DNA of 48,376 nucleotides from Pseudomonadota bacterium (GTDB taxonomy: Bacteria > Desulfobacterota > S145-22), in the NCBI GenBank assembly GCA_015493505.1, contig WGDA01000129.1:1-48376 (forward strand), read 5' to 3'. This document shows, piece by piece, positions 6,476-19,888 of this stretch (position 1 is its first letter; every line of letters starts with the position of its first letter). The position numbers and the translations under genes are program-made. The notes under the pieces are model-generated. The model did no database searches, was not told where the DNA came from, and saw nothing but the letters and a program-made list of their open reading frames with translations.

Positions 6476-6574
6476 CTGGCGGAATAAATGCAACGTCCGG
6501 TTGAGGCAATTTGGCCACGGATTTCCACGGATACACGCGGATAAAAAGAAGCAAAATGTGAGAAGTAAAAGGTT
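6476..6574 (+). repeat. Dispersed repeat A, copy 1
   Basis: A 99-base stretch that matches 8220-8318 (also 99 bases) with about ten mismatches and small indels, same orientation. It contains the run GCAACGTCCGGTTGAGGC and the phrase GATTTCCACGGATAC, of the hitchhiking intergenic repeat type found in many environmental genomes. The two copies bracket the DUF4143 ATPase gene. Confidence 0.85.
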
Positions 6575-6594
6575 TAAAGAGAAAAAGCCAAGTA

Positions 6595-6643
6595 CAAATG
6601 ATTATTTGACAGGATTTCTTAGAAACTTATGGTTTTATGAGCG
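6595..6643 (+). repeat. Dispersed repeat B, copy 1 (reaches into the ATPase stop region)
   Basis: Contains TTTGACAGGATTTCTTAGAA and then CTTATGGTTTTATGA. It matches 8139-8203 in the same orientation and, inverted, about 20003-20060. It overlaps the end of the ATPase coding sequence (stop at 6635-6637). The other two copies also preserve a few bases resembling the last codons of the ATPase gene. Confidence 0.75.
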
Positions 6644-7977: not shown

Positions 7978-8230
7978 TTAGCCGCAGATGAACGCAGATT
8001 GAGAACAGTGAATAGTGGAGAGTTTACCCCGCCAGTCCTGTTGAATTCGGCGAAGCCGAGTTATTCAACCGGGATGAAATACCACGAAGTGGTTAGCCGC
8101 AGGCGGATTTCACAGAGGTGGAAAGACAAAGTCAAAAACCAATGATTTCTTGACAGGATTGACAGGATTGACAGGATTTCTTAGAAGCTTATGATTTTAT
8201 GAATGGCTCACTGTTTCCCCTGGCGGAAAA
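7978..8230 (+). repeat. Composite border repeat, left copy (inverted relative to 19981-20193)
   Basis: In order: a GCAGATGAACGCAGATT phrase, GAACAGTGAATAGTG, GTTTACCCC, a variable filler, GGCGGATTTCACAG, GTGGAAAGACAAAG, CCAATGATTTCTTGACAGG with two further GACAGGATT units, TTCTTAGAAGCTTATGATT. The same blocks in the same order are found on the opposite strand at 19981-20193. The copies differ mainly in the filler (about 70 versus 22 bases). Confidence 0.8.
8139..8230 (+). repeat. Dispersed repeat B, copy 2, with remnant of an ATPase gene end
   Basis: Nested in the left composite repeat. It matches 6595-6670: after the GACAGGATT units and TTATGATTTTATGA the similarity continues into bases that, on the minus strand, align with the last codons of the ATPase gene (TTTTTT, GGGGAA, then TCATAA in register). 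The rest of a second ATPase gene is absent; repeat A copy 2 follows directly. Confidence 0.6.
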
Positions 8231-8318
8231 AATGCAACGTCCGGTTGAGGCAATTTGGCCACAGATTTCCACGGATACGCGCGGACAGGAAAAAGTAAAA
8301 TGTGAAAAGTAAAAGGTT
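8220..8318 (+). repeat. Dispersed repeat A, copy 2
   Basis: 99 bases matching 6476-6574 in the same orientation, including the GCAACGTCCGGTTGAGGC core. Lies to the right of repeat B copy 2, whereas copy 1 lies to the left of repeat B copy 1, so the pair is not a simple tandem duplication. Confidence 0.85.
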
Positions 8319-8844: not shown

Positions 8845-8909
8845 CTGGCATCGTAATGAGATCGTTTCAATTCCTCATAGGTAGGCTAAGAATTCAGGTA
8901 CGATGCCAG
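8845..8909. repeat. 11-bp inverted repeat around the leader-distal CRISPR repeat
   Basis: CTGGCATCGTA at 8845-8855 is the exact reverse complement of TACGATGCCAG at 8899-8909. The second arm lies inside the last spacer, so the arms enclose the terminal repeat. On the transcribed minus strand a stem of 11 pairs could form with a 43-base loop; no T run follows. It may be coincidence or a trailer structure. Confidence 0.6.
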
Positions 8910-9362
8910 CGGGGTTCATCAATTACGGGCGTTTCAATTCCTCATAGGTAGGCTAAGAATCGGACCGGGTCAGCAACCCCAACGCCAATCCAGACACGTT
9001 TCAATTCCTCATAGGTAGGCTAAGAATCTGTCCTCCGTCGCGGCCGCCTTCCTGCGCGGTAACCAAGTTTCAATTCCTCATAGGTAGGCTAAGAATAAGG
9101 TTAAGGCATTCTGATACGCCTTCCGCATCTTGTGTTTCAATTCCTCATAGGTAGGCTAAGAATGACTCCCGTACAAGTCAAATCCGTCCAATCCTTCATG
9201 TTTCAATTCCTCATAGGTAGGCTAAGAATTACATGAGAAAATTAAATGCTGAAGCACACACTTCAGTTTCAATTCCTCATAGGTAGGCTAAGAATCTGCG
9301 CTGGCGACACACGTAAAATATCTTCTGGACAAGTTTCAATTCCTCATAGGTAGGCTAAGAAT
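8864..9362 (-). CRISPR. CRISPR array, 8 repeats and 7 spacers (type I-B)
   Basis: Eight identical 30-base repeats start at 8864, 8931, 8998, 9067, 9134, 9200, 9266 and 9333 on the plus strand; each begins GTTTCAATTCCTC and ends GGCTAAGAAT. Spacers are 37, 37, 39, 37, 36, 36 and 37 bases. Read on the minus strand the repeat ends in ATTGAAAC, the usual 5' handle of type I-B crRNA made by Cas6, so the array is transcribed on the minus strand, the same strand as the cas genes. The leader is therefore the right flank (9363-9529), and new spacers enter near 9333. No repeat is degenerate, including the leader-distal one at 8864, which fits a short or recently shortened array. Confidence 0.97.
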
Positions 9363-9529
9363 CCATTTTCCTCCTTGTAAAATACAGTTTTCACGTATTC
9401 ACTCTTTCCCCATTTTGTTTCCATTCTACAAATTTAAATTACAAGATTCTATCTAAAGTTTCAAGCACCTTTGATCATTTTACCCGATCGTCGATCCCCC
9501 GGTGTTTTTGCGTTATCCTTGATCGACGT
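9363..9529 (-). promoter_or_regulatory. CRISPR leader with putative promoter
   Basis: 167 bp between cas2 and the first-transcribed repeat, markedly AT-rich compared with flanking genes. On the minus strand TTGAAA (9459-9464) and TAATTT (9436-9441) are spaced by 17 bp and point into the array. An ACAAGGAGG-like purine run lies directly before the first repeat. Leader identity rests on repeat orientation and position; the promoter boxes are only partly consensus. Confidence 0.6.
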
Positions 9530-10790: not shown

Positions 10791-11299
10791 GACCAGCAAA
10801 ACTCCTGGTAAGCACATTTCCTGCAAAAACGGCTACGGACAGGAGGGGGTGGATTTTTAGATGCCACTATTTTTTTGATATGTTCAATTGTTTTTTCCAA
10901 TTCGATTCTTAAGCTTTCTGTTAATTCAATAGAGATTCGCTTGCGCTCTCGAGGGATGAGTAATTCGCCTTTGGTCTGCAACCCCATTTTCTCCAATCTC
11001 CAGAGATAATATGCGAGTTGCATCTTGGCCGATTTCGTTGTTTTGGAGGATTTTTTGACTTCACCTATTATAAGCCTTCCTTCTCTCCTTTGAAGGATAT
11101 CAATTTTCATCCCGGGAAAAGTAAATTCCTTTTTATCTCGGGAATACGTTCCTTCATGGATAAGCCTTCCCAACTCAAGAAAAAGATTTTCATGCTCCGG
11201 GTTTAATTCGTGAGCCATGAGCCAGACTTCACGTTGGCATATGTAGTAATACCAAATCAGGGTGCCGGTGACCTTTGGAGGTTCATCTACCAGACACAT
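10787..11299 (-). CDS. cas4: CRISPR-associated exonuclease Cas4
   Basis: 170 residues from ATG 11299 (GGAGG is four bases upstream; the gene overlaps the end of cas3 by 13 bases). Visible RecB-like nuclease motifs: His in LGRLIHEGTYS, Asp in MKIDILQR and the GEVKKSSK E-x-K. The iron-sulfur cysteines are one in YYYICQREVW near the N-terminus and three in CRKCAYQEFC at the C-terminus. Cas4 trims and orients prespacers for Cas1-Cas2. It overlaps cas1 by four bases, so the adaptation genes are translationally coupled. Confidence 0.93.
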   Translation of the reverse strand: MCLVDEPPKVTGTLIWYYYICQREVWLMAHELNPEHENLFLELGRLIHEGTYSRDKKEFTFPGMKIDILQRREGRLIIGEVKKSSKTTKSAKMQLAYYLWRLEKMGLQTKGELLIPRERKRISIELTESLRIELEKTIEHIKKIVASKNPPPPVRSRFCRKCAYQEFCWS

Positions 11300-13818
11300 G
11301 CATCCTCCCCGGGTTGCCATTTAAAGCCAGTTTCTAAGTCATAAAAGTCTTCAACCTGATCTTTGGGAATAAAATGAAGGTCTTTGCTTCCCTCTAACAC
11401 AGGTGGAAGATTTTGGATCGCTCTTTCGATCCTCGGGGTAATGAGCCGTTCATGGAAAACCCTGCGCCAGGTGAGAAAAGCCTCCCTTCTTTTTTTAAAA
11501 TCCTTTTCATAAAGAACCTGCTCTTTAAACTGCTTCAAGACGATCTCATCTTCGCCTGTTAGCACTGTAAATATTGGCACTTGAGGGCCCTCCGTAATGA
11601 GACGGTAATCGCTTACACTCGAGAGGTCTTCCCGATAGAAGTCTAGCTTTAAGAAGGCTTTCCAGATCTCTTGGGACTGCTCCGTATCGATCCGCTCATG
11701 TATCCTTTTGAAGAATCGTTCCACTCCCTGGATATAAGTGTTCTCCGGATACACCCCGTCCCCCAGAATCTTTGAGGTTCCCCAGACATGAAGCTTTTTG
11801 TAAACATGCTCAGCGCCACCTCCATCAAGGTGATAAACTTGTACCATTCCAGGAGTTTCTTTCGTAGCGGAGCGATTGCATCGACCAGCTACCTGAACAA
11901 TCGAATCCAAAGGACCGATATCTCGAATAACACTCTGAAAATCAAGATCTACTCCAGCCTCGATGACCTGAGTGGAGATGACGATCACTGGTAAGCCCTG
12001 GCCAACCCACGCTTTGAGGAAATCGATGCGAGCTACTCGTTGTAGAGGATTGATATTGGTCGAAAGATACACAATAGGAACCATTTTTTTAGTTCGAGCA
12101 AGGAGACGCATTATCTCTCCCTCTTGAGTAGTCTTGGGATAGCCGATGCAGGGAAGAAGTTTATCTGTTAGCTTAGCTTTCAATGCCTCATAAACTTTTA
12201 TGGACATAGAGATAGTATTTAATACCACGAGTAAAGAGTTATTTTCGTCCCAAGTCTCTATTATCTTTTCTTCAAAAAAATCCAGGGATATCTTTTCTTG
12301 GGTCTTTGCCTTGAGCAAAGTCCGATGGAGCTTCTGGAAGTGCATCTCAGGTGAGGGGATTAACTCTTGAGCCTCCCCTTCCTGAAAGATTAAAGGTCTG
12401 GTTGCCGTCATCTGGATCACGGTAACCCCAAATTTTTTGGAAAGCAGCTTGAGGAAATTCCTTACTAAGGGCCACTGCTCCACCGGGATGCTCTGCACCT
12501 CATCCAAGATAAGGATGCTTCCAATAATGTTGTGGAACTTTTTTAGGAAACTATTTTTAAAGCCGATGATACTATGGAGGAGCTGCACAAATGTGGTAAC
12601 AATAACCTCACTCTCCCAAGATTCGGTGAGCAAAAGGCCCTCATCTACCCCGCGTTCTTCACTCCCTTCTCGGTAGCGAATTTCTGCAAGATGATGATGC
12701 TTGAGGAGATAAGCATGTTCGTTTCTGGGAAATTCGGGAAGCTCACTTAGAACATCGTAGAAAACGGAGTAGTTCTGCTCGATGATACTTATAAAAGGAA
12801 GGGCGTAGATAATCCGTGGCAAATACTCCATTTCTTGGTCAATCCTCCGCCTGAGCTTAAAGGCAAAAGAGAGAGCTGTTAGGGTCTTACCTGAACCGGT
12901 GGGAGCGGTTAGAGTAAGGATTTTCCCGGGCAAATCATTTAGTGACCTTGCTAAACTCCCCATAACCTCGTGGTAGAGTTGACGTCGTAGCGAGTCCAGG
13001 GGTGTTCTCTCTTCATTGAAGTGTTTTTTGATGTAGCGATCTACCAAGTCTGGAGGTATTTGTCGTCTTTTTACTGTGGCCACTTTAGCAGCTCTACGCT
13101 TATCAGCATCGATAAGGACACTGAAGAGAAGCATTGTCCAAAGAGCCACAGTCATTCGGAGTTTCTCAGAGGCAAGTTCTTCGGATATTTGCCTATTGAG
13201 CCTAAATAATAATTTAAAGATGGTTATAAATGTTTCTTCTGTAAGAAATAACCCGATATCCTTAATTCCCAGGCTCTGAAGCTCTTCGGCCATATCACTA
13301 AATCGCGACTCTTGCAAAAGGTCTTCTTTCTGGCTCCAGAGGGCTTTGAGATGTTCACGCATCGATCCTTCTGCACACATAAAGTGAGGAGGGTCATTAA
13401 GCGCTTTTGGAGGAGGAATTACTAATTCAGGGGCAGTGAGGTCTCCATGATGTCGATGGATAACCAAGTAGCCAAGGAGGGAGAGGAAATTTTCAGGTTT
13501 GGTCATATCCCCTGGAGGGAACTCCTTTTGCAGGAGCCATGCCCCCAGGAGAGCAGAAATGAAAGCATGATGTTGCCTTGCTCCAAAATTTTTGCCCTGG
13601 CGCAGATGGCTTTGAAAGAAAGAGGTGTATTTGCCAAAGTCATGACAAAGGCCGATCAATCTGGCAGCCGCCGCTAACGAAGACTTGTTCGGTAAGGGTA
13701 AGCCTTTTATGAAATCATAAGAGGCTTCTCCCACTTCTTTTAAGTGTTCTTTCAGCAATTTATCTGGCTGAGTATGAGAGAAAAAAAGCGTATTTAGTTC
13801 TATGTTATTATCTTCCAT
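11287..13818 (-). CDS. cas3: CRISPR-associated helicase/nuclease Cas3 (HD + helicase)
   Basis: 843 residues, full length. The N-terminal HD nuclease shows FFSHTQPDKLLKEHL, the HD pair in LCHDFGKYTSFF near residue 55 and RQHHAFISA. The SF2 helicase follows: Walker A TAPTGSGKTLTALS near residue 300, the DEVQ box in ILILDEVQSIP, MTATRP, and a C-terminal VAGRCNRS (motif VI). Cas3 is recruited by Cascade to the R-loop and degrades target DNA. A 79-bp gap separates it from cas5, the largest break in the operon; it contains no recognisable promoter. All key motifs are intact. Confidence 0.95.
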   Translation of the reverse strand: MEDNNIELNTLFFSHTQPDKLLKEHLKEVGEASYDFIKGLPLPNKSSLAAAARLIGLCHDFGKYTSFFQSHLRQGKNFGARQHHAFISALLGAWLLQKEFPPGDMTKPENFLSLLGYLVIHRHHGDLTAPELVIPPPKALNDPPHFMCAEGSMREHLKALWSQKEDLLQESRFSDMAEELQSLGIKDIGLFLTEETFITIFKLLFRLNRQISEELASEKLRMTVALWTMLLFSVLIDADKRRAAKVATVKRRQIPPDLVDRYIKKHFNEERTPLDSLRRQLYHEVMGSLARSLNDLPGKILTLTAPTGSGKTLTALSFAFKLRRRIDQEMEYLPRIIYALPFISIIEQNYSVFYDVLSELPEFPRNEHAYLLKHHHLAEIRYREGSEERGVDEGLLLTESWESEVIVTTFVQLLHSIIGFKNSFLKKFHNIIGSILILDEVQSIPVEQWPLVRNFLKLLSKKFGVTVIQMTATRPLIFQEGEAQELIPSPEMHFQKLHRTLLKAKTQEKISLDFFEEKIIETWDENNSLLVVLNTISMSIKVYEALKAKLTDKLLPCIGYPKTTQEGEIMRLLARTKKMVPIVYLSTNINPLQRVARIDFLKAWVGQGLPVIVISTQVIEAGVDLDFQSVIRDIGPLDSIVQVAGRCNRSATKETPGMVQVYHLDGGGAEHVYKKLHVWGTSKILGDGVYPENTYIQGVERFFKRIHERIDTEQSQEIWKAFLKLDFYREDLSSVSDYRLITEGPQVPIFTVLTGEDEIVLKQFKEQVLYEKDFKKRREAFLTWRRVFHERLITPRIERAIQNLPPVLEGSKDLHFIPKDQVEDFYDLETGFKWQPGEDACVW

Positions 13819-13897: not shown

Positions 13898-14677
13898 TTA
13901 GGGTTCCATGAATACCCCATATTCTTTCCTCGAACCGTTCAGGTCTTCATAGAAGAGTTGATAGACATTCCCATTGGGAATTAGCTCTAAGGGCCTGGCA
14001 TTGCGTTCATAAAGAATATCCGCAACAGCAGCGAGAGAGCGTCCTGGGGCAAAGTCCAGCGGTTGACGTTCTTTGAGAAGCTGTAGTCCGCCTTGTAACT
14101 CCAAGCTCTCTGATCTAATGCGTTTCACGGGCACCACTGTAGCAATTTTTAGAGGTTTCTTTGTCTCCGAAAGCCAGCTCATCTTGCTCTTCCCCACCAA
14201 CGTCGCCCAAGGGATCTCCGCAGGGCATTCGGTAATGCCGAGATAGGGCGGGTAGATGAATCTTCTTTCCCGTAGCTGTCTCCAAAGCTTTTCCATAAGT
14301 CTGTCATCCTCATGCCAAAAGTAGATGCGGTATGTGAGCTTTTTATTTCCTACTACAGGCTGCACTAATTCCAAAGGGACTTGTGTGTGGCCAGAGCTTG
14401 CATCTACCTCGGGAAGACCTTTTGTTCTGACATAATTAACCGTCTGGACTATTTTCCGTACAGGTGTTCTCAACGATACCCCAATTCCACATCTCTTGGT
14501 TGAAAAACCCTCGTAGTAACTATCCCGTGGCATGCCTAAAATTCCAGCAATGAGGCCACAGATAGTGGTTCTTGGTGGGAAGGAATAGGATAGCGAGGAG
14601 GAATTGGAGTAAAACCTGCGGAAATGGGCCATAAGGCCAGCAAGGTCAAAAAGGATGATTTTATCTGGATAACCCAT
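13898..14677 (-). CDS. cas5b: Cascade subunit Cas5 (type I-B)
   Basis: 259 residues. The N-terminal RAMP strand and loop FDLAGLMAHFRRFYSNSSS followed by SFPPRTTICGLIAGILG are typical of the I-B (Hmari/Cas5h) branch. Cas5 binds the 5' handle of crRNA and caps the Cas7 backbone next to Cas8. The ATG directly follows the TAA of cas7. Confidence 0.93.
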   Translation of the reverse strand: MGYPDKIILFDLAGLMAHFRRFYSNSSSLSYSFPPRTTICGLIAGILGMPRDSYYEGFSTKRCGIGVSLRTPVRKIVQTVNYVRTKGLPEVDASSGHTQVPLELVQPVVGNKKLTYRIYFWHEDDRLMEKLWRQLRERRFIYPPYLGITECPAEIPWATLVGKSKMSWLSETKKPLKIATVVPVKRIRSESLELQGGLQLLKERQPLDFAPGRSLAAVADILYERNARPLELIPNGNVYQLFYEDLNGSRKEYGVFMEP

Positions 14678-15667
14678 TTAGATCTCCCTATGGGGCAACT
14701 CCCTCACTTTTTCTTTGCCCAGTGATTCTTCCAGAAGTTTCTCCAAAGTTTTTCCATCCTTCCAGGCCAGATTGGGATGGCTCCAACTGTAGATGGCCTT
14801 TATCTTTTCTCGGTTGCTTTTGAACAGATTAGCCAAGTTGGTGGCATCCAACTCAAAGTCACTCAACTGAGAAATGCTACCCTCACTCTTCGGTTGGAGT
14901 TCTATATAGTCGCGAAAATCACCCAATAGCGTCTCGCCATCAGCATATTCCGCTCTAAGGAGCAGCCGCGGAGTTTGCCCGATCTTGCTTCGTGTCGTAG
15001 CTTGTAAGGGAAGAGCCGCCAAAAGAGCGTTATCTAAGTCCCTTACATCAGTTTCAGTCAGGTTGGTCTTAGTCGCTCGCCAAACGCTGATCAGGCCATA
15101 AAAGGCGATTAAAGAGTATTTTACTCGCCAGTCTTTCCCCATAGTTCCATATTCACCCTTTTCACCTTCTTCCCTTCCCGCAAACGTTGAAGTAATGGTG
15201 GAAGAAGGTAAAATCTCAACCGGGTGTAAGGAATAGCCCCAGGAGAACTGAACCGGTCCAGTAAGAGTGAGTGAGGTCCCCCTTGATCCTTCCTCCCCTA
15301 TCGGCATGGTCGCACCAAACAAACGAACATCCTTGAGCCTTTTGAGAAGCCATTCACGAAAATTAGGGTTTTTACTGGCTTCCTTGGCATTCTTTGCTCC
15401 AAATTCCTTAGCTAACTTGTCAATTCGCTGTTTAGCTGAGGTTGTCTTCTCTTCTCCGCCCTCCTCTATCCTGCGAATCCAAATATCCTCGCCTTTTTCC
15501 AACCAATAATCCCGAAGATACCGTTTGAGGCGTACATCACTCACAAGATTGCGTTCCGTTTCGTAATCCATCCGGGGCTTATTCTCTTCATCTGGGTCGC
15601 CATTGGGATTGCACAGTCGCGCATCAAAGAGATAAAGGATTTCCGAGTTTTGGGTTACGTTACTCAT
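14678..15667 (-). CDS. cas7: Cascade backbone subunit Cas7 (Csh2, type I-B)
   Basis: 329 residues. The hallmark LFDARLCNPNGDPDEENKPR near residue 13 and the RLKRYLRDYW helix identify the Cas7/Csh2 family. Copies of Cas7 coat the spacer part of crRNA. The gene overlaps the end of cas8b by four bases (ATGA) and abuts cas5. About residues 75-115 are rich in Lys/Glu, as in related I-B Cas7. Confidence 0.94.
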   Translation of the reverse strand: MSNVTQNSEILYLFDARLCNPNGDPDEENKPRMDYETERNLVSDVRLKRYLRDYWLEKGEDIWIRRIEEGGEEKTTSAKQRIDKLAKEFGAKNAKEASKNPNFREWLLKRLKDVRLFGATMPIGEEGSRGTSLTLTGPVQFSWGYSLHPVEILPSSTITSTFAGREEGEKGEYGTMGKDWRVKYSLIAFYGLISVWRATKTNLTETDVRDLDNALLAALPLQATTRSKIGQTPRLLLRAEYADGETLLGDFRDYIELQPKSEGSISQLSDFELDATNLANLFKSNREKIKAIYSWSHPNLAWKDGKTLEKLLEESLGKEKVRELPHREI

Positions 15668-16101
15668 TCTAAACCTCCTTTGTTAGAGTCTTTTGTTTCC
15701 TTCTGAGCCTTTCCCGTTATAGCTCTCCAGGTTGCATAAGCATAACCACTAAGGATGTAATAAACGTTCTCTTGAGGGGTGAGTTCCCAATTACGGCGGT
15801 TCCTATCCAAAAGGGCCTTCGTCGTAGCGAAGACTCCTTCGTTATATGATAAGACCTTGTATTGCTCCAGCTTCTCAAAGATCTCGTTAGAAAGACGGTA
15901 TAACCTAGAGAGGGACATTCCCATGAAGTTGATCTTATTCAAAATTGGCTTTTTCTTACCACCCGATGTATGCTGCTCTATCCCGATCTGACCGACAAGA
16001 TATCCCAAGAGAAAAAGTCCCGCTTGTGGCCCATCGTAGCTCATTTCACTGATGTAGTCTTTAATGTCCTTGGGTAGTTCTGCTACAAAGTCATTCATCA
16101 T
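15664..16101 (-). CDS. Putative Cas11b small subunit from an internal start in cas8b
   Basis: Within cas8b and in the same frame, AAAGGAGG (16106-16113) lies four bases before an ATG at 16101 and seven before a second ATG at 16098. This is one of the strongest ribosome sites in the operon. Translation from 16101 gives 145 residues beginning MMNDFVAELPKD and ending at the cas8b stop. It is known for several type I-B, I-C and I-D systems that the small subunit Cas11 is made this way from the cas8/cas10d 3' end, at a similar size. No separate cas11 gene is present in the operon. The codons KGGKMM could be there for coding reasons, so expression is inferred. Confidence 0.65.
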   Translation of the reverse strand: MMNDFVAELPKDIKDYISEMSYDGPQAGLFLLGYLVGQIGIEQHTSGGKKKPILNKINFMGMSLSRLYRLSNEIFEKLEQYKVLSYNEGVFATTKALLDRNRRNWELTPQENVYYILSGYAYATWRAITGKAQKETKDSNKGGLE

Positions 16102-17718
16102 CTTGCCTCCTTTATAAACTTTTTTTATCATCTTCAACGCTTGTAGATATCTAATCAAGAGTGCACTCTGGAGGAGAAATCGCGCTATAGCAGTATCCAA
16201 ACCTTCCTGTAACGGGTTATGCACATATTGCCCATAATTTTCATAGTAGTACATTTTAGCTACTTCCAAGAATTTTGCCACCAGAAAACTGTATTTCACG
16301 GTTCTACCAGTAAAGAGGTTCTCATAGAAATCCAGAACGTCATTGTTTAGGACTTGCCTTTGTCTCTTCCTCACCGGGAAAAGCCAAAAGATCGTTCCTA
16401 AGCTAAGATCCCATGAACCAGATTCTCCTAAGAGACGGTCACCCAAGTTCCTCATCTTGTTTCTTTCCTCAATCAGGAGATCCAAGCGAGAAGGGGGAAC
16501 GTCCTGAACTAACTTCTGAATCCTAACTTCAGCTTGACGTTTTTGAACGAAGAGGAAATTTAGTAGGAAAGAAGCCTTGTGTTCATCATAATCTTTAAAA
16601 TCCTCAAGTTTTTCTTGGAATTTGCGCCACCCATCTAAACTAGAGAGCTTCCCTAAATAGCTATTGAGGTATTTAGCCCAACCTTTGAGCCTTTCCGGCG
16701 AAAGTTCCAGATCGAGGTGGAAAGAGGGTATTACATAAACATCATTATACGCAAGGTTAGACCGCAGGTTTTTTCGAGCAAAAGTTTCACCTGCCAAAAG
16801 GGCCATGTAGCATTCCTGACAAAGGGAGTAGTTCCGGTAAAAACCTTCTTTCGCGTCCAAACCACTGGCAAATCCAATTTTATCTGTGTTGTAGAATTTA
16901 AGGAGCTTAAAGAACTTCGTATTCGCGGTGACTGGGTGAGTTCGCCCGCAGAGATGACAAACACCTGTGGGAGCATTTATAAATAGTTCTTCCACGGTCC
17001 TTTGGAAGATATATCGTTTATAGTCTGGATGAGCTGCGAGAAGCATTCCATTTATCTCCAAGGTATAAAGGGCAATATCTCCAGACTTAAGTCCAAGCTC
17101 TTTGGAAATCCAGGCAGCGAGGAACTTCTTTAACTCTGCAACTGCATCTTTGGCCTTACCTTGCTTTTGTGCTATAGAAATTAAATCATCTTTTATCGGT
17201 GCATCCTCTAACCCCATCTTTCGCAGATTCCAGAGATAACGATTTCGCCCATAGCTGCCATCTACACCAGAATTTCCGAAGATATCCTTTTTATCTCCAA
17301 GATCGATATAAAATTCATTCCTGAACTCTTGAAGCTGCATTCTAAGTTCCCCTGCTGGCAGTCTATCTTCTTTAAGTAGGTTGGGAATCGTTTGTGAAAC
17401 TAAGTATTCAAGGTGGTCTGTGGTAACGCGATCTTGATCATCATTGGCAGCTCCTGCGTTGCCTACCCAAAGGTATTTTCTAAGCTTTTCCCCATTGACT
17501 ACCCACTGGCCCTTTTTTTGATCATAATGCCCAATTTCACACGAATCGGGTTCAAGAGAAAAACAATTTATATCAATTTTTAATGTCACGAGATGGGGTG
17601 GGTTCTTTTTATTGTTTCCCCAACGCAAATCCTCCACAAGATATTCTACGAAATTTTTCTCAATTTCATCGGCAACGTTAAGCAGGTCCTTACCAATCTT
17701 TTTTATTCCTTGAATCAT
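15664..17718 (-). CDS. cas8b: Cascade large subunit Cas8b (TM1802/Csh1 family)
   Basis: 684 residues. A zinc-finger-like pair CHLCGRTH near residue 258 and LCQECYMALLAGE near residue 303 is characteristic of the TM1802/Csh1 type Cas8b. The large subunit recognises the PAM and opens the DNA. The C-terminal 145 residues are helical and correspond to the small-subunit (Cas11) part, with their own ribosome site (see next entry). Overlaps of four bases on both sides (65-residue ORF upstream, cas7 downstream) imply coupled translation. Divergence of Cas8 is typical, so subtype placement rests on the neighbouring I-B cas5/cas7 as well. Confidence 0.92.
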   Translation of the reverse strand: MIQGIKKIGKDLLNVADEIEKNFVEYLVEDLRWGNNKKNPPHLVTLKIDINCFSLEPDSCEIGHYDQKKGQWVVNGEKLRKYLWVGNAGAANDDQDRVTTDHLEYLVSQTIPNLLKEDRLPAGELRMQLQEFRNEFYIDLGDKKDIFGNSGVDGSYGRNRYLWNLRKMGLEDAPIKDDLISIAQKQGKAKDAVAELKKFLAAWISKELGLKSGDIALYTLEINGMLLAAHPDYKRYIFQRTVEELFINAPTGVCHLCGRTHPVTANTKFFKLLKFYNTDKIGFASGLDAKEGFYRNYSLCQECYMALLAGETFARKNLRSNLAYNDVYVIPSFHLDLELSPERLKGWAKYLNSYLGKLSSLDGWRKFQEKLEDFKDYDEHKASFLLNFLFVQKRQAEVRIQKLVQDVPPSRLDLLIEERNKMRNLGDRLLGESGSWDLSLGTIFWLFPVRKRQRQVLNNDVLDFYENLFTGRTVKYSFLVAKFLEVAKMYYYENYGQYVHNPLQEGLDTAIARFLLQSALLIRYLQALKMIKKVYKGGKMMNDFVAELPKDIKDYISEMSYDGPQAGLFLLGYLVGQIGIEQHTSGGKKKPILNKINFMGMSLSRLYRLSNEIFEKLEQYKVLSYNEGVFATTKALLDRNRRNWELTPQENVYYILSGYAYATWRAITGKAQKETKDSNKGGLE
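16102..16113 (-). promoter_or_regulatory. Internal ribosome binding site within cas8b
   Basis: AAAGGAGG followed by CAAG and ATGATG on the minus strand, in frame with cas8b. Complementarity to the 16S 3' end covers eight bases, stronger than the sites before most genes of this operon. Confidence 0.7.
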
Positions 17719-17912
17719 AGTTGTCTGCTCTTCTTTACAAAGTTCATTTTTATTTCGACACCCTCGAAGGGATCCTTCGGGGGGAATACGCCAAGAGTCC
17801 TGGCCTTCTGAAGCAGGGCATTCAGGATTTTATACTTCTGCTCGATCGTAAGTTCCTCCTTCCGGGCAAACTCCCGCTCGAACCGGCGACATTTCAGTTT
17901 ATCCCTGATCAT
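17715..17912 (-). CDS. Uncharacterised 65-residue protein inside the cas operon
   Basis: The ATG overlaps the 3' end of cas6 by 14 bases and the stop overlaps the cas8b start by four (ATGA), so the ORF sits as a regular cistron of the operon. The protein is highly charged: a basic N-terminus (MIRDKLKCRRFEREFARKEE), a helix TIEQKYKILNALLQKARTLG, then FPPKDPFEGVEIKMNF and a basic end. No domain is recognised and there is no signal or membrane segment. It is too short for a usual Cas11. It may be a small Cascade- or crRNA-associated protein, or an unrelated passenger; the double overlap argues that it is translated. Confidence 0.65.
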   Translation of the reverse strand: MIRDKLKCRRFEREFARKEELTIEQKYKILNALLQKARTLGVFPPKDPFEGVEIKMNFVKKSRQL

Positions 17913-18678
17913 TTCCGCCGTTCTCTCTTCTTTTCATTACCTCTACCATCCCGAATCCCTGGCTGTTTTTGGCACCGAGGCCGGCATCCATCGCCATGGA
18001 GAGGTATGGTTCCGGCATGTTGAGCTCATAAATCCCCCGCCACCCCTTGATGATTGTGTTCTTGTATTTGAGAATCGCGAGATGACGTGTGTTGACGTGA
18101 ACAGGGCGAATGGAGGCACCGTCGGGTTCTGGAATCTCCACGGCGCTATTGTGAAAGGCCTGCAATTTCTTAGAGAGGTTTTTGAGAATCAGGGTATTAA
18201 ACTCCGGTTCCTGGGGGGAGTAATAGTAGGTTTTCCTCCTCTTTTCCGGTGTGTAAAGGGTGGAATACACAGTAATGGGGGAGAGGACACGGACCCGGAC
18301 GGGTGATTTTAACGGCCGGTTCATCATGACTTCCACGGAGACCAATTCGCAGGTATTACGCCCCAGCCGGATAACGGACTCCTTGACCAGGTGCGTGGCG
18401 AAGGATTCCAGGATATCCTTGTTAGGCGAGCTTACCCATAGCTTGACGAGGCCGGAAAAGCTTATCTCTCCGTTTTTAATTCTGTATTTTCCCTGGAGGC
18501 GGGAGAAGGTAAAGAGCCTGAACCTCCTTTTTCCCTGTTCATAGCCGGCTCCATGCAGCCAGTCCGCCAGAGTTTTCGACAGGTGGCGATAGATCATTCC
18601 CTGGATTTTTTCATTATAGTGGATGGGGAGAGATATTGATTGCTCTCTCTTACCAATAAATGTAATGGCTATCCTCAT
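17899..18678 (-). CDS. cas6: CRISPR RNA endonuclease Cas6
   Basis: 259 residues. Two RAMP-type halves end in the glycine-rich C-terminal motif GLGAKNSQGFGMVE near residue 235, diagnostic of Cas6. A His in LPIHYNEKIQGMIYRHLS near residue 20-30 is in the region of the usual catalytic His. Cas6 cuts the repeat RNA to leave the ATTGAAAC handle seen in this array. It is the first gene of the operon, about 130 nt downstream of the predicted transcription start; the ribosome site is weak. Confidence 0.93.
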   Translation of the reverse strand: MRIAITFIGKREQSISLPIHYNEKIQGMIYRHLSKTLADWLHGAGYEQGKRRFRLFTFSRLQGKYRIKNGEISFSGLVKLWVSSPNKDILESFATHLVKESVIRLGRNTCELVSVEVMMNRPLKSPVRVRVLSPITVYSTLYTPEKRRKTYYYSPQEPEFNTLILKNLSKKLQAFHNSAVEIPEPDGASIRPVHVNTRHLAILKYKNTIIKGWRGIYELNMPEPYLSMAMDAGLGAKNSQGFGMVEVMKRRENGGNDQG

Positions 18679-19209
18679 GCGCGTTTGCCTGGATTAACAG
18701 GAGAACAGTGGACATTCGAGTTATTGTGTTTTGTAATAGCCTTTGATTTTAAGCGATTATACATCAGCGTTTGTCCTGAAATCGCAAAAGTTGATTATAT
18801 ATTGTTAATTGAATATTATATCATAAACTTATAAATTTGTCAAGATGCCTCGCTGGCAAGCTAACTATTTAAAAGGGTAAAGGGGAAAAGCCTGTCTTTG
18901 TGCCCCGCCACAAACAGGATAACTGTTTATTTTCATTATTATATTTATCCTTTCTTTGCGGCTTTGAGGCCTTGCGCGAAGCCTATGTTTTTTGTTTTTT
19001 CAATCCGATTTCATCTGCGCAATCTGCGGATAACTGATCACCTATCACACATCACCCCAGCGGAATCCGCCTCTGGCTGACTGCTGCGCAGTATTTTACG
19101 GGGTAAATTTTGAACATAGAACGTCGAACGTTGAACTTTTCGCTCAGTCCTCAGCCTGCCTCGTTGAATTGAATCCTCCTCAGGGAGGCCACCTGGAGTC
19201 CTTTTCCCT
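18679..19209. other. Non-coding stretch between cas6 and the toxin gene
   Basis: Contains the cas promoter and its leader, then fragments of the dispersed repeat language: CATCTGCGCAATCTGCGG near 19012, CGGAATCCGCC near 19062, GGGGTAAA near 19099, and GAACGTCGAACGTTGAAC near 19116-19137. A small hairpin CCTCC-TCAG-GGAGG lies at 19175-19188, downstream of the toxin gene, without a T run. No gene is supported. Confidence 0.6.
18815..18843 (-). promoter_or_regulatory. Consensus sigma-70 promoter of the cas operon
   Basis: On the minus strand TTGACA (18838-18843), 17 bp, TATAAT (18815-18820): a perfect match to the housekeeping consensus in an AT-rich region. Transcription would begin near 18808 and leave a 5' leader of roughly 130 nt before cas6. 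No operator-like palindrome was noticed over the boxes. Confidence 0.8.
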
Positions 19210-19596
19210 TTACCCTTTCTTATAGGCCGGTTCGATGCCCTTCAGCATAGGGTAATGCTTCGTGTTCAGGGTCTTAAGCTCCGCGTTCTCCATTTCAGCG
19301 GTCGCTGCCAAAATGGCATCGGCAAGCCCCACCCCATGGGATTTGCCATAATCGCGTTTATAGAGTCCTCCCGCTTTGGCTATCTCCGCGCTCACCGGCA
19401 CAACACGAAAGAGTGAAACAAAGTTCTCCAGGACGCGGAGTTCCGCGTCTCCTTTCACGCCGGCATACAGCTCCGCAACAACGATGGATGACAGGATGAT
19501 CCTGTGAGCGTGGGCATTGACGAAGTCCACCGCCTTGTCGAACCCTCGGAGAAAATCAACGAGAACATCCGTGTCCGGCAGGATTTCCCTGAACAT
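19210..19596 (-). CDS. PIN-domain toxin (VapC-like)
   Basis: 128 residues from ATG 19596, two bases after the antitoxin stop and with AGGA upstream; the ATG six codons earlier lies inside the antitoxin gene. Acidic PIN residues are visible: Asp in LPDTDVLVDFLRG, Glu in VVAELYAG, and Asp in GLADAILAATAE. VapC toxins are ribonucleases that cut tRNA or rRNA loops and are neutralised by the partner. The domain is complete, so the toxin is probably active. Location beside the cas promoter may be chance or may stabilise the island. Confidence 0.88.
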   Translation of the reverse strand: MFREILPDTDVLVDFLRGFDKAVDFVNAHAHRIILSSIVVAELYAGVKGDAELRVLENFVSLFRVVPVSAEIAKAGGLYKRDYGKSHGVGLADAILAATAEMENAELKTLNTKHYPMLKGIEPAYKKG

Positions 19597-19598
19597 GG

Positions 19599-19832
19599 TC
19601 AATTCCTGTCCCATTCGGCCCGCATTGCCTGAAAGTCAGGAAGATCCTTCCGGTCCTTCCATATTCCGGCGGCTTCGCGCAGCACGGCCTCCCGTCGACT
19701 GCTGCTCACTTGTTCGATCAGGCGATCCACAGCCTCCCGTATGAGTTCACTCTGTTTTTTCCCAAGGATTTTAGAAAGTTCTGCCAGTTCGGCACGTTGA
19801 CGAGCCGTAAGATATATTTGCGTTCTTATCAT
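19599..19832 (-). CDS. Ribbon-helix-helix antitoxin (VapB-like)
   Basis: 77 residues from ATG 19832, which has GGGAGG five bases upstream; a longer reading from 19856 would start inside the operator and promoter. The N-terminal strand IRTQIYLTARQRAELAELS and helices KKQSELIREAVDRLIEQ form a CopG/Arc-type DNA-binding domain. The C-terminal part (AAGIWKDRKDLPDFQAMRAEW) is the probable toxin-binding tail. It precedes the PIN toxin with a two-base gap, and likely represses its own promoter through the inverted repeat just upstream. Confidence 0.88.
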   Translation of the reverse strand: MIRTQIYLTARQRAELAELSKILGKKQSELIREAVDRLIEQVSSSRREAVLREAAGIWKDRKDLPDFQAMRAEWDRN

Positions 19833-19845
19833 CACAACCTCCCAT

Positions 19846-19888
19846 GATGTATACACCTGTATTATACATCACATAGGCTCTACGTCAA
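19846..19888 (-). promoter_or_regulatory. Toxin-antitoxin promoter with overlapping operator
   Basis: Minus strand: TTGACG (19883-19888), 16 bp, TATAAT (19861-19866). A perfect inverted repeat GATGTATA / TATACATC (19846-19853 and 19863-19870, nine bases apart) covers the -10 box and the start site. This is the classic layout for autorepression by an RHH antitoxin. Confidence 0.8.

Follow-up and report, generated by a model that had tools for sequence, protein, structure and literature searches.

The cas8b gene of a type I-B CRISPR-Cas operon in the window (the whole 48,376-nucleotide stretch of DNA that was analysed) very probably contains, besides its own start, a hidden second one, from which a small Cas11 protein would be made out of the tail of the gene. 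Comparison with homologous sequences makes this a well-supported further case of a known form of internal translation, rather than a novel phenomenon. We consider it highly likely that the site is a working Cas11b start; translation in the host, together with the assembly into Cascade, the copy number and the function of the product, is what we infer for it.

The operon is of type I-B and runs in the order cas6, a 65-aa ORF, cas8b, cas7, cas5, cas3, cas4, cas1 and cas2 (Table 1). Profiles identify cas6, cas7, cas5 and cas3, whereas cas4, cas1 and cas2 are assigned solely from where they lie and from their ORF sequences. After the operon comes a CRISPR array with at least eight repeats of ~30 nt at 8863–9368. 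Cas8b matches PF09484 with an E-value of 4e-123 (412.7 bits against a cut-off of 25.1), and also exceeds the cut-offs of TIGR02556 (229.6 against 157) and TIGR02591 (215.7 against 104). The probable operon promoter, recognized by its sequence, lies ~140 nt upstream of cas6 and agrees with the sigma-70 consensus at 12 of 12 positions, with TG before the −10 element. The ATG of cas7b overlaps the stop codon common to cas8b and cas11b (ATGA) and has its own Shine–Dalgarno (SD) element, AAAGGAGGT. Two other features of the neighbourhood were noted: a PIN-domain and a ribbon-helix-helix protein encoded side by side as a VapBC-type pair (19210–19856, minus strand), upstream of the operon, and, near the CRISPR array, two diverged copies of a short segment (6476–6640 and 8124–8318), 81–94% alike over pieces and ~1.5–1.7 kb apart.

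Table 1. Coordinates of the cas genes, the internal start site and associated features in the window
Feature	Position	Strand	Basis
Internal SD AAAGGAGG for putative Cas11b	16106..16113	−	sequence; complement of 16S 3' end; same place in homologues
Putative cas11b reading frame, including stop codon	15664..16101	−	first ATG; alternative second ATG at 16098
Second ATG	16096..16098	−	spacing from GGAGG compared with homologues
cas8b, Cas_TM1802/Csh1 family large subunit, 684 aa	15664..17718	−	PF09484, TIGR02556, TIGR02591, PADLOC Cas8b
cas7b	14678..15667	−	TIGR02590; sequence
cas5b	13898..14677	−	PADLOC Cas5b; TIGR02593 over cut-off
cas3 (HD and helicase)	11287..13818	−	TIGR01587 and TIGR01596 over cut-off
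cas6	17899..18678	−	TIGR01877
65-aa ORF between cas6 and cas8b	17715..17912	−	stop overlaps cas8b ATG (ATGA)
sigma-70 promoter match upstream of cas6	18815..18843	−	consensus scan alone

The initial annotation had stated that the operon contains no separate small-subunit gene, and this holds: none was found among the operon ORFs, and a Cas11-domain profile run against the whole 2.8-Mb assembly matched only within cas8b, with no second gene for the domain. The assembly-wide result refers to a profile of the C-terminal Cas8b domain rather than of the other Cas11 families (Cse2, Csm2, Cmr5).

Around the internal site the minus strand reads GTTTATAAAGGAGGCAAGATGATGAATGAC. The spacer CAAG (16105–16102) separates the SD from ATGATG (16101–16096), of which the first ATG occupies 16101–16099; the two ATGs are in frame with cas8b as its codons 540 and 541 of 684 (M540/M541). 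As had been described initially, AAAGGAGG, CAAG and ATGATG thus open a frame of 145 residues within cas8b, which closes on the TGA at 15666–15664. The product would be 145 aa long (16.58 kDa) from the first ATG, or, if the second ATG is used, 144 aa (16.44 kDa). In the host genome the 16S rRNA ends in GGATCACCTCCTTT and has a canonical anti-SD; its 3' end, CCTCCTTT, is a perfect 8-bp complement of AAAGGAGG, giving a duplex energy of −11.7 kcal/mol.

A genomic background for internal SD–ATG pairs was drawn from ~300 kb of the host genome, comprising 174 ORFs of at least 200 aa (74,154 codons). Only four internal in-frame ATGs in this set follow an exact SD of at least 8 nt at a spacing of 3–12 nt; both ATGs of the cas8b site have such an SD and should be two of the four. 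An SD energy of −11.7 kcal/mol or lower was found at 13 internal ATGs, both from the cas8b site included. The site is therefore uncommon, not unique, and is no proof by itself. Local folding there is not special by z-score, although across the family the start regions show less structure than the remainder of their genes. The earlier description of the site as unusually strong did not stand: among the 89 family members it takes rank 34, and its strength is typical for PF09484.

Conservation was assessed in 89 non-redundant PF09484 homologues that span the junction, bacterial and archaeal, taken from genomes, contigs and plasmid records and aligned. The window Cas8b alone, as query against genome contigs, found no relative; a first homologue alignment was too diverse to serve as query, a narrower one led to 80 named loci, and searches at the family and class levels covered six genomes and gave one match. 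The comparison of orthologues proposed by the initial annotation was made at long range, the closest homologues found being 23% (L007) and ~29% (Thermus) identical to the window Cas8b, and in most of the 89 an internal SD and start are kept at the aligned position. In nearly all of them a usable start codon stands behind an SD at or near the M540/M541 column, as illustrated by loci L003 (AGGAGGTaaaagatATG), L007 (GGAGGTGAaaacATG), L075 (AAAGGAGGTtaaaATG), L067 from Methanosarcina (AGGAGGTaaatgtATG) and L011 from a Thermus brockianus plasmid (GGAGGctatATG).

Each site was scored by the energy of its SD duplex, with a penalty applied for the start codon, −9 kcal/mol or better being called strong, and the null was obtained by shuffling synonymous codons within each gene, so that the protein and its codon usage were kept. 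A strong SD and start occur at the junction in 84% of the 89 homologues, as compared with 22% in the shuffles. These homologues are related to each other and their counts are not independent; when cluster representatives were taken, the corresponding values were 83% and 25% at 60% identity (42 genes), 83% and 36% at 45% identity (18 genes), and 80% and 36% at 35% identity (10 genes). Strong in-frame starts number 135 over all homologues, and 79 of these fall in three 20-column bins between −40 and +19 of the junction; the next largest group (32 of the 135) sits in the bin that holds the start of the gene itself. About 16% of homologues, for example those of Runella and Altiarchaeota, are without a strong SD.

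The SD and ATG could simply follow from the need to encode KGGKMM, in which case the site would not initiate and Cas8b would work with its C-terminal domain only. In the window gene KGGKM all but forces a good SD, so that a synonymous-shuffle test of this gene alone is not significant (P 0.4), and 11 other internal ATGs in the 174 genome ORFs have an SD energy equal or better. However, the linker residues vary among homologues (KGGK, NIGGEN, FEEVKD, MEEEK, SKKEVK), yet the SD is kept, and it is kept in two reading phases: one in 61 genes, where the core encodes mostly x-Glu-(Glu/Val), the other in 17 genes, window cas8b included, where it encodes mostly Gly-Gly. A tree computed with the junction columns removed requires six changes of phase, a figure to be taken as an estimate because the tree is a quick one in which some branches, that of the window included, are long. 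Survival of the SD through some six such changes argues for selection on nucleotides and not only on residues. Codon choice was examined in the 50 genes in which an initiator Met is aligned, the expectation being taken from each gene's own usage: just upstream of the internal start 70 of 88 Glu codons are GAG and 18 GAA, where 25 GAG were expected, whereas just downstream 23 of 92 are GAG and 69 GAA, where 27 GAG were expected. The strong GAG bias is thus confined to the upstream side, and at the family level the signal is kept beyond what the protein forces. That residues change while the SD stays is the strongest argument from sequence for use of the site, and we regard a mere by-product as improbable.

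Two further origins of a small protein would bypass internal initiation on the operon mRNA. Proteolysis of Cas8b has in the past been suggested for C. thermocellum and M. maripaludis, and a short Cas8b fragment reported earlier was attributed to fragmentation (Richter et al., 2017, as cited in PMC11899642); but selection on SD nucleotides would then be purposeless, and in Haloferax the M545A substitution abolishes the product (PMC11899642), so that this origin seems very improbable here. We give equally little credence to an internal promoter that would produce Cas11b from a separate short mRNA. One weak promoter-like match, agreeing at 9 of 12 positions, does lie upstream (16281–16253), but the number of promoter-like sites is no greater than in shuffled sequence (5 as compared with 5.6), and the sole 12-of-12 site is that upstream of cas6; an internal promoter for Cas11b is therefore unsupported.

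If internal initiation is taken as the preferred reading, which of the two ATGs would be used can be addressed by spacing. The first G of GGAGG is 9 nt from the first ATG and 12 nt from the second. In a count that kept the nearest start, the 12-nt spacing was found in 15 of the 17 homologues of the same SD phase, and 9 nt only here and in Thermus brockianus. Distances from AGGAGG to ATG in the host genome range from 7 to 16 and are most often 10–13 (23 cases). Spacing thus slightly favours the second ATG, and both may be used. The N-terminus had been given as MMNDF or MNDF; the frame stands for either, and MNDF fits the relatives somewhat better.

An AlphaFold2 model computed from 58 aligned Cas11b domains is all-helical, with seven helices and no strands (pLDDT 82, pTM 0.79); as predicted, the 145-aa domain has the form expected for Cas11, a small helical bundle of ~130–150 aa. 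Foldseek searches with the model against the PDB and viral models returned no match at E ≤ 0.001; the weak hits include type I-C Cascade chains, and the best CRISPR match by probability is an I-C chain (E 2.3, probability 0.47). By sequence, no homologue of the window Cas8b was found in the PDB.

The start of cas8b itself has almost no SD (−2.8 kcal/mol, as compared with −11.7 kcal/mol at the internal site). Across 86 homologues the median energies are −11.0 for the internal and −9.9 kcal/mol for the gene's own start, and the internal SD is stronger in 44 and weaker in 25 by at least 1 kcal; in this comparison the rows are related, the position of each gene's own start is itself an estimate and no account is taken of coupling, so that the tendency across the family towards a stronger internal SD is only suggestive. 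In the window, the overlap of the 65-aa ORF stop with the cas8b ATG may allow translational coupling to supply ribosomes to cas8b. It is conceivable, though we hold it only tentatively, that the internal start also sets the ratio of Cas11b to Cas8b, with cas8b reached by coupling to the 65-aa ORF. A search of 148 genomes of the phylum, Thermodesulfobacteriota, found homologues of this ORF in 15, the window's own genome included, and in the three loci read (L120–L122) they adjoin a nucleotidyltransferase-like ORF (MVIGGQAVLLYGEPRLT.DIDITLG), a partner that is absent beside the window ORF. The 65-aa ORF may be an orphan captured from a nucleotidyltransferase gene pair, coupling translation to cas8b.

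Several loci among the homologues have unusual arrangements. In Ca. Altarchaeum sp. GA_1_1 (L091; JAGTWP010000011.1, 821–2740) cas8b is split exactly at the Cas11 junction: the upstream part is a 485-codon open frame ending AAGATATGA, and the C-terminal domain has its own 157-codon open frame, whose ATG overlaps that stop codon (ATGA). We count this split in favour of the Cas11b reading, since nature seems here to have set cas11b apart as a gene, although the strain or its assembly may instead contain a frameshift. The cas8b gene of Thermodesulfobacterium thermophilum DSM 1276 (L002/L023) has an in-frame TAA in mid-gene, with the Cas11b part and its SD intact. In Leptospiraceae bacterium KatS3mg129 (L096, 2464–4206) the frame is broken upstream of the Cas11b part into frames of 347 and 204 codons; the Cas11b start with CGAGGAGCAAAAAATG is intact despite the break. 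No SD precedes the possible internal ATG of cas8b on a Runella sp. SP2 plasmid (L012, 3386–5320), in line with the weak use of SD elements by Bacteroidota. On a Thermus thermophilus HB5018 plasmid (L014, 3857–5026) the annotated TM1802 protein of ~390 aa is without the Cas11 region, cas2 follows directly after its gene, and cas7 and cas5 are not annotated nearby; this is probably a decayed locus.

As we picture it, cas8b would encode two proteins. Ribosomes starting at 17718 would make the Cas8b large subunit, and those initiating independently at AAAGGAGG and the ATG at 16101 or 16098 would yield just the helical C-terminal domain, as Cas11b. Judging from type I-B complexes characterised elsewhere, the belly of Cascade may be formed by several Cas11b copies adjacent to the C-terminal domain of Cas8b, where they would hold on to the non-target strand of the DNA. 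Cas11b escapes standard annotation, and in the systems studied type I-B Cascade is impaired without it, so that reconstituting such systems needs an extra gene. A criterion based on nucleotides, namely an SD kept across phases together with the GAG bias, locates the start in the majority of Cas_TM1802 members examined.

Internal translation of Cas11 is already established as a principle, as the initial annotation noted; in type I-B it has been shown in Haloferax (PMC11899642) and predicted in T. maritima (PMC13199841); the PF09484 profile matches the Cas8b proteins of both. In the type I-B system of Haloferax volcanii, mass spectrometry together with mutation established M545 as the internal start, in whose absence interference is weakened (PMC11899642). 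As predicted for the window, the start is in frame and the product is the C-terminal third of Cas8b. The Haloferax system is archaeal, however, with a larger product (28.9 kDa calculated, for a tagged construct) and a weak SD, GGATG, and its Cas11b has been shown experimentally, whereas that of the window is predicted from sequence.

In the type I-B1 system of Thermotoga maritima, whose TM1802 gave the family its name, Cas11 (15.1 kDa) likewise lies within Cas8b1 and has no separate gene. Co-purification of Cas8b1 with Cascade depended on Cas11 being supplied, and in E. coli the internal start from which Cas11 is predicted was silent (PMC13199841), so that sequence is no guarantee of initiation. 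The authors put the silence down to a suboptimal ribosome-binding site and/or start codon (PMC13199841), whereas the SD and ATG of the window are canonical. In the I-B Cascade of Synechocystis sp. PCC 6714, three Cas11b copies and the Cas8b C-terminal domain form a belly that supports the non-target strand, and Cas11b there is, as we read it for the window, the C-terminal portion of Cas8b, a helical bundle with an internal ribosome-binding site (PMC11096372). That Cas8b belongs to the Cas8b3 (Cmx8) lineage, whereas the window Cas8b is without a PDB homologue by sequence. The same principle of one gene and two proteins applies, in different families of large subunit, to Cas11d from cas10d in type I-D and Cas11c from cas8c in type I-C (McBride et al., 2020, as cited in PMC10212523).
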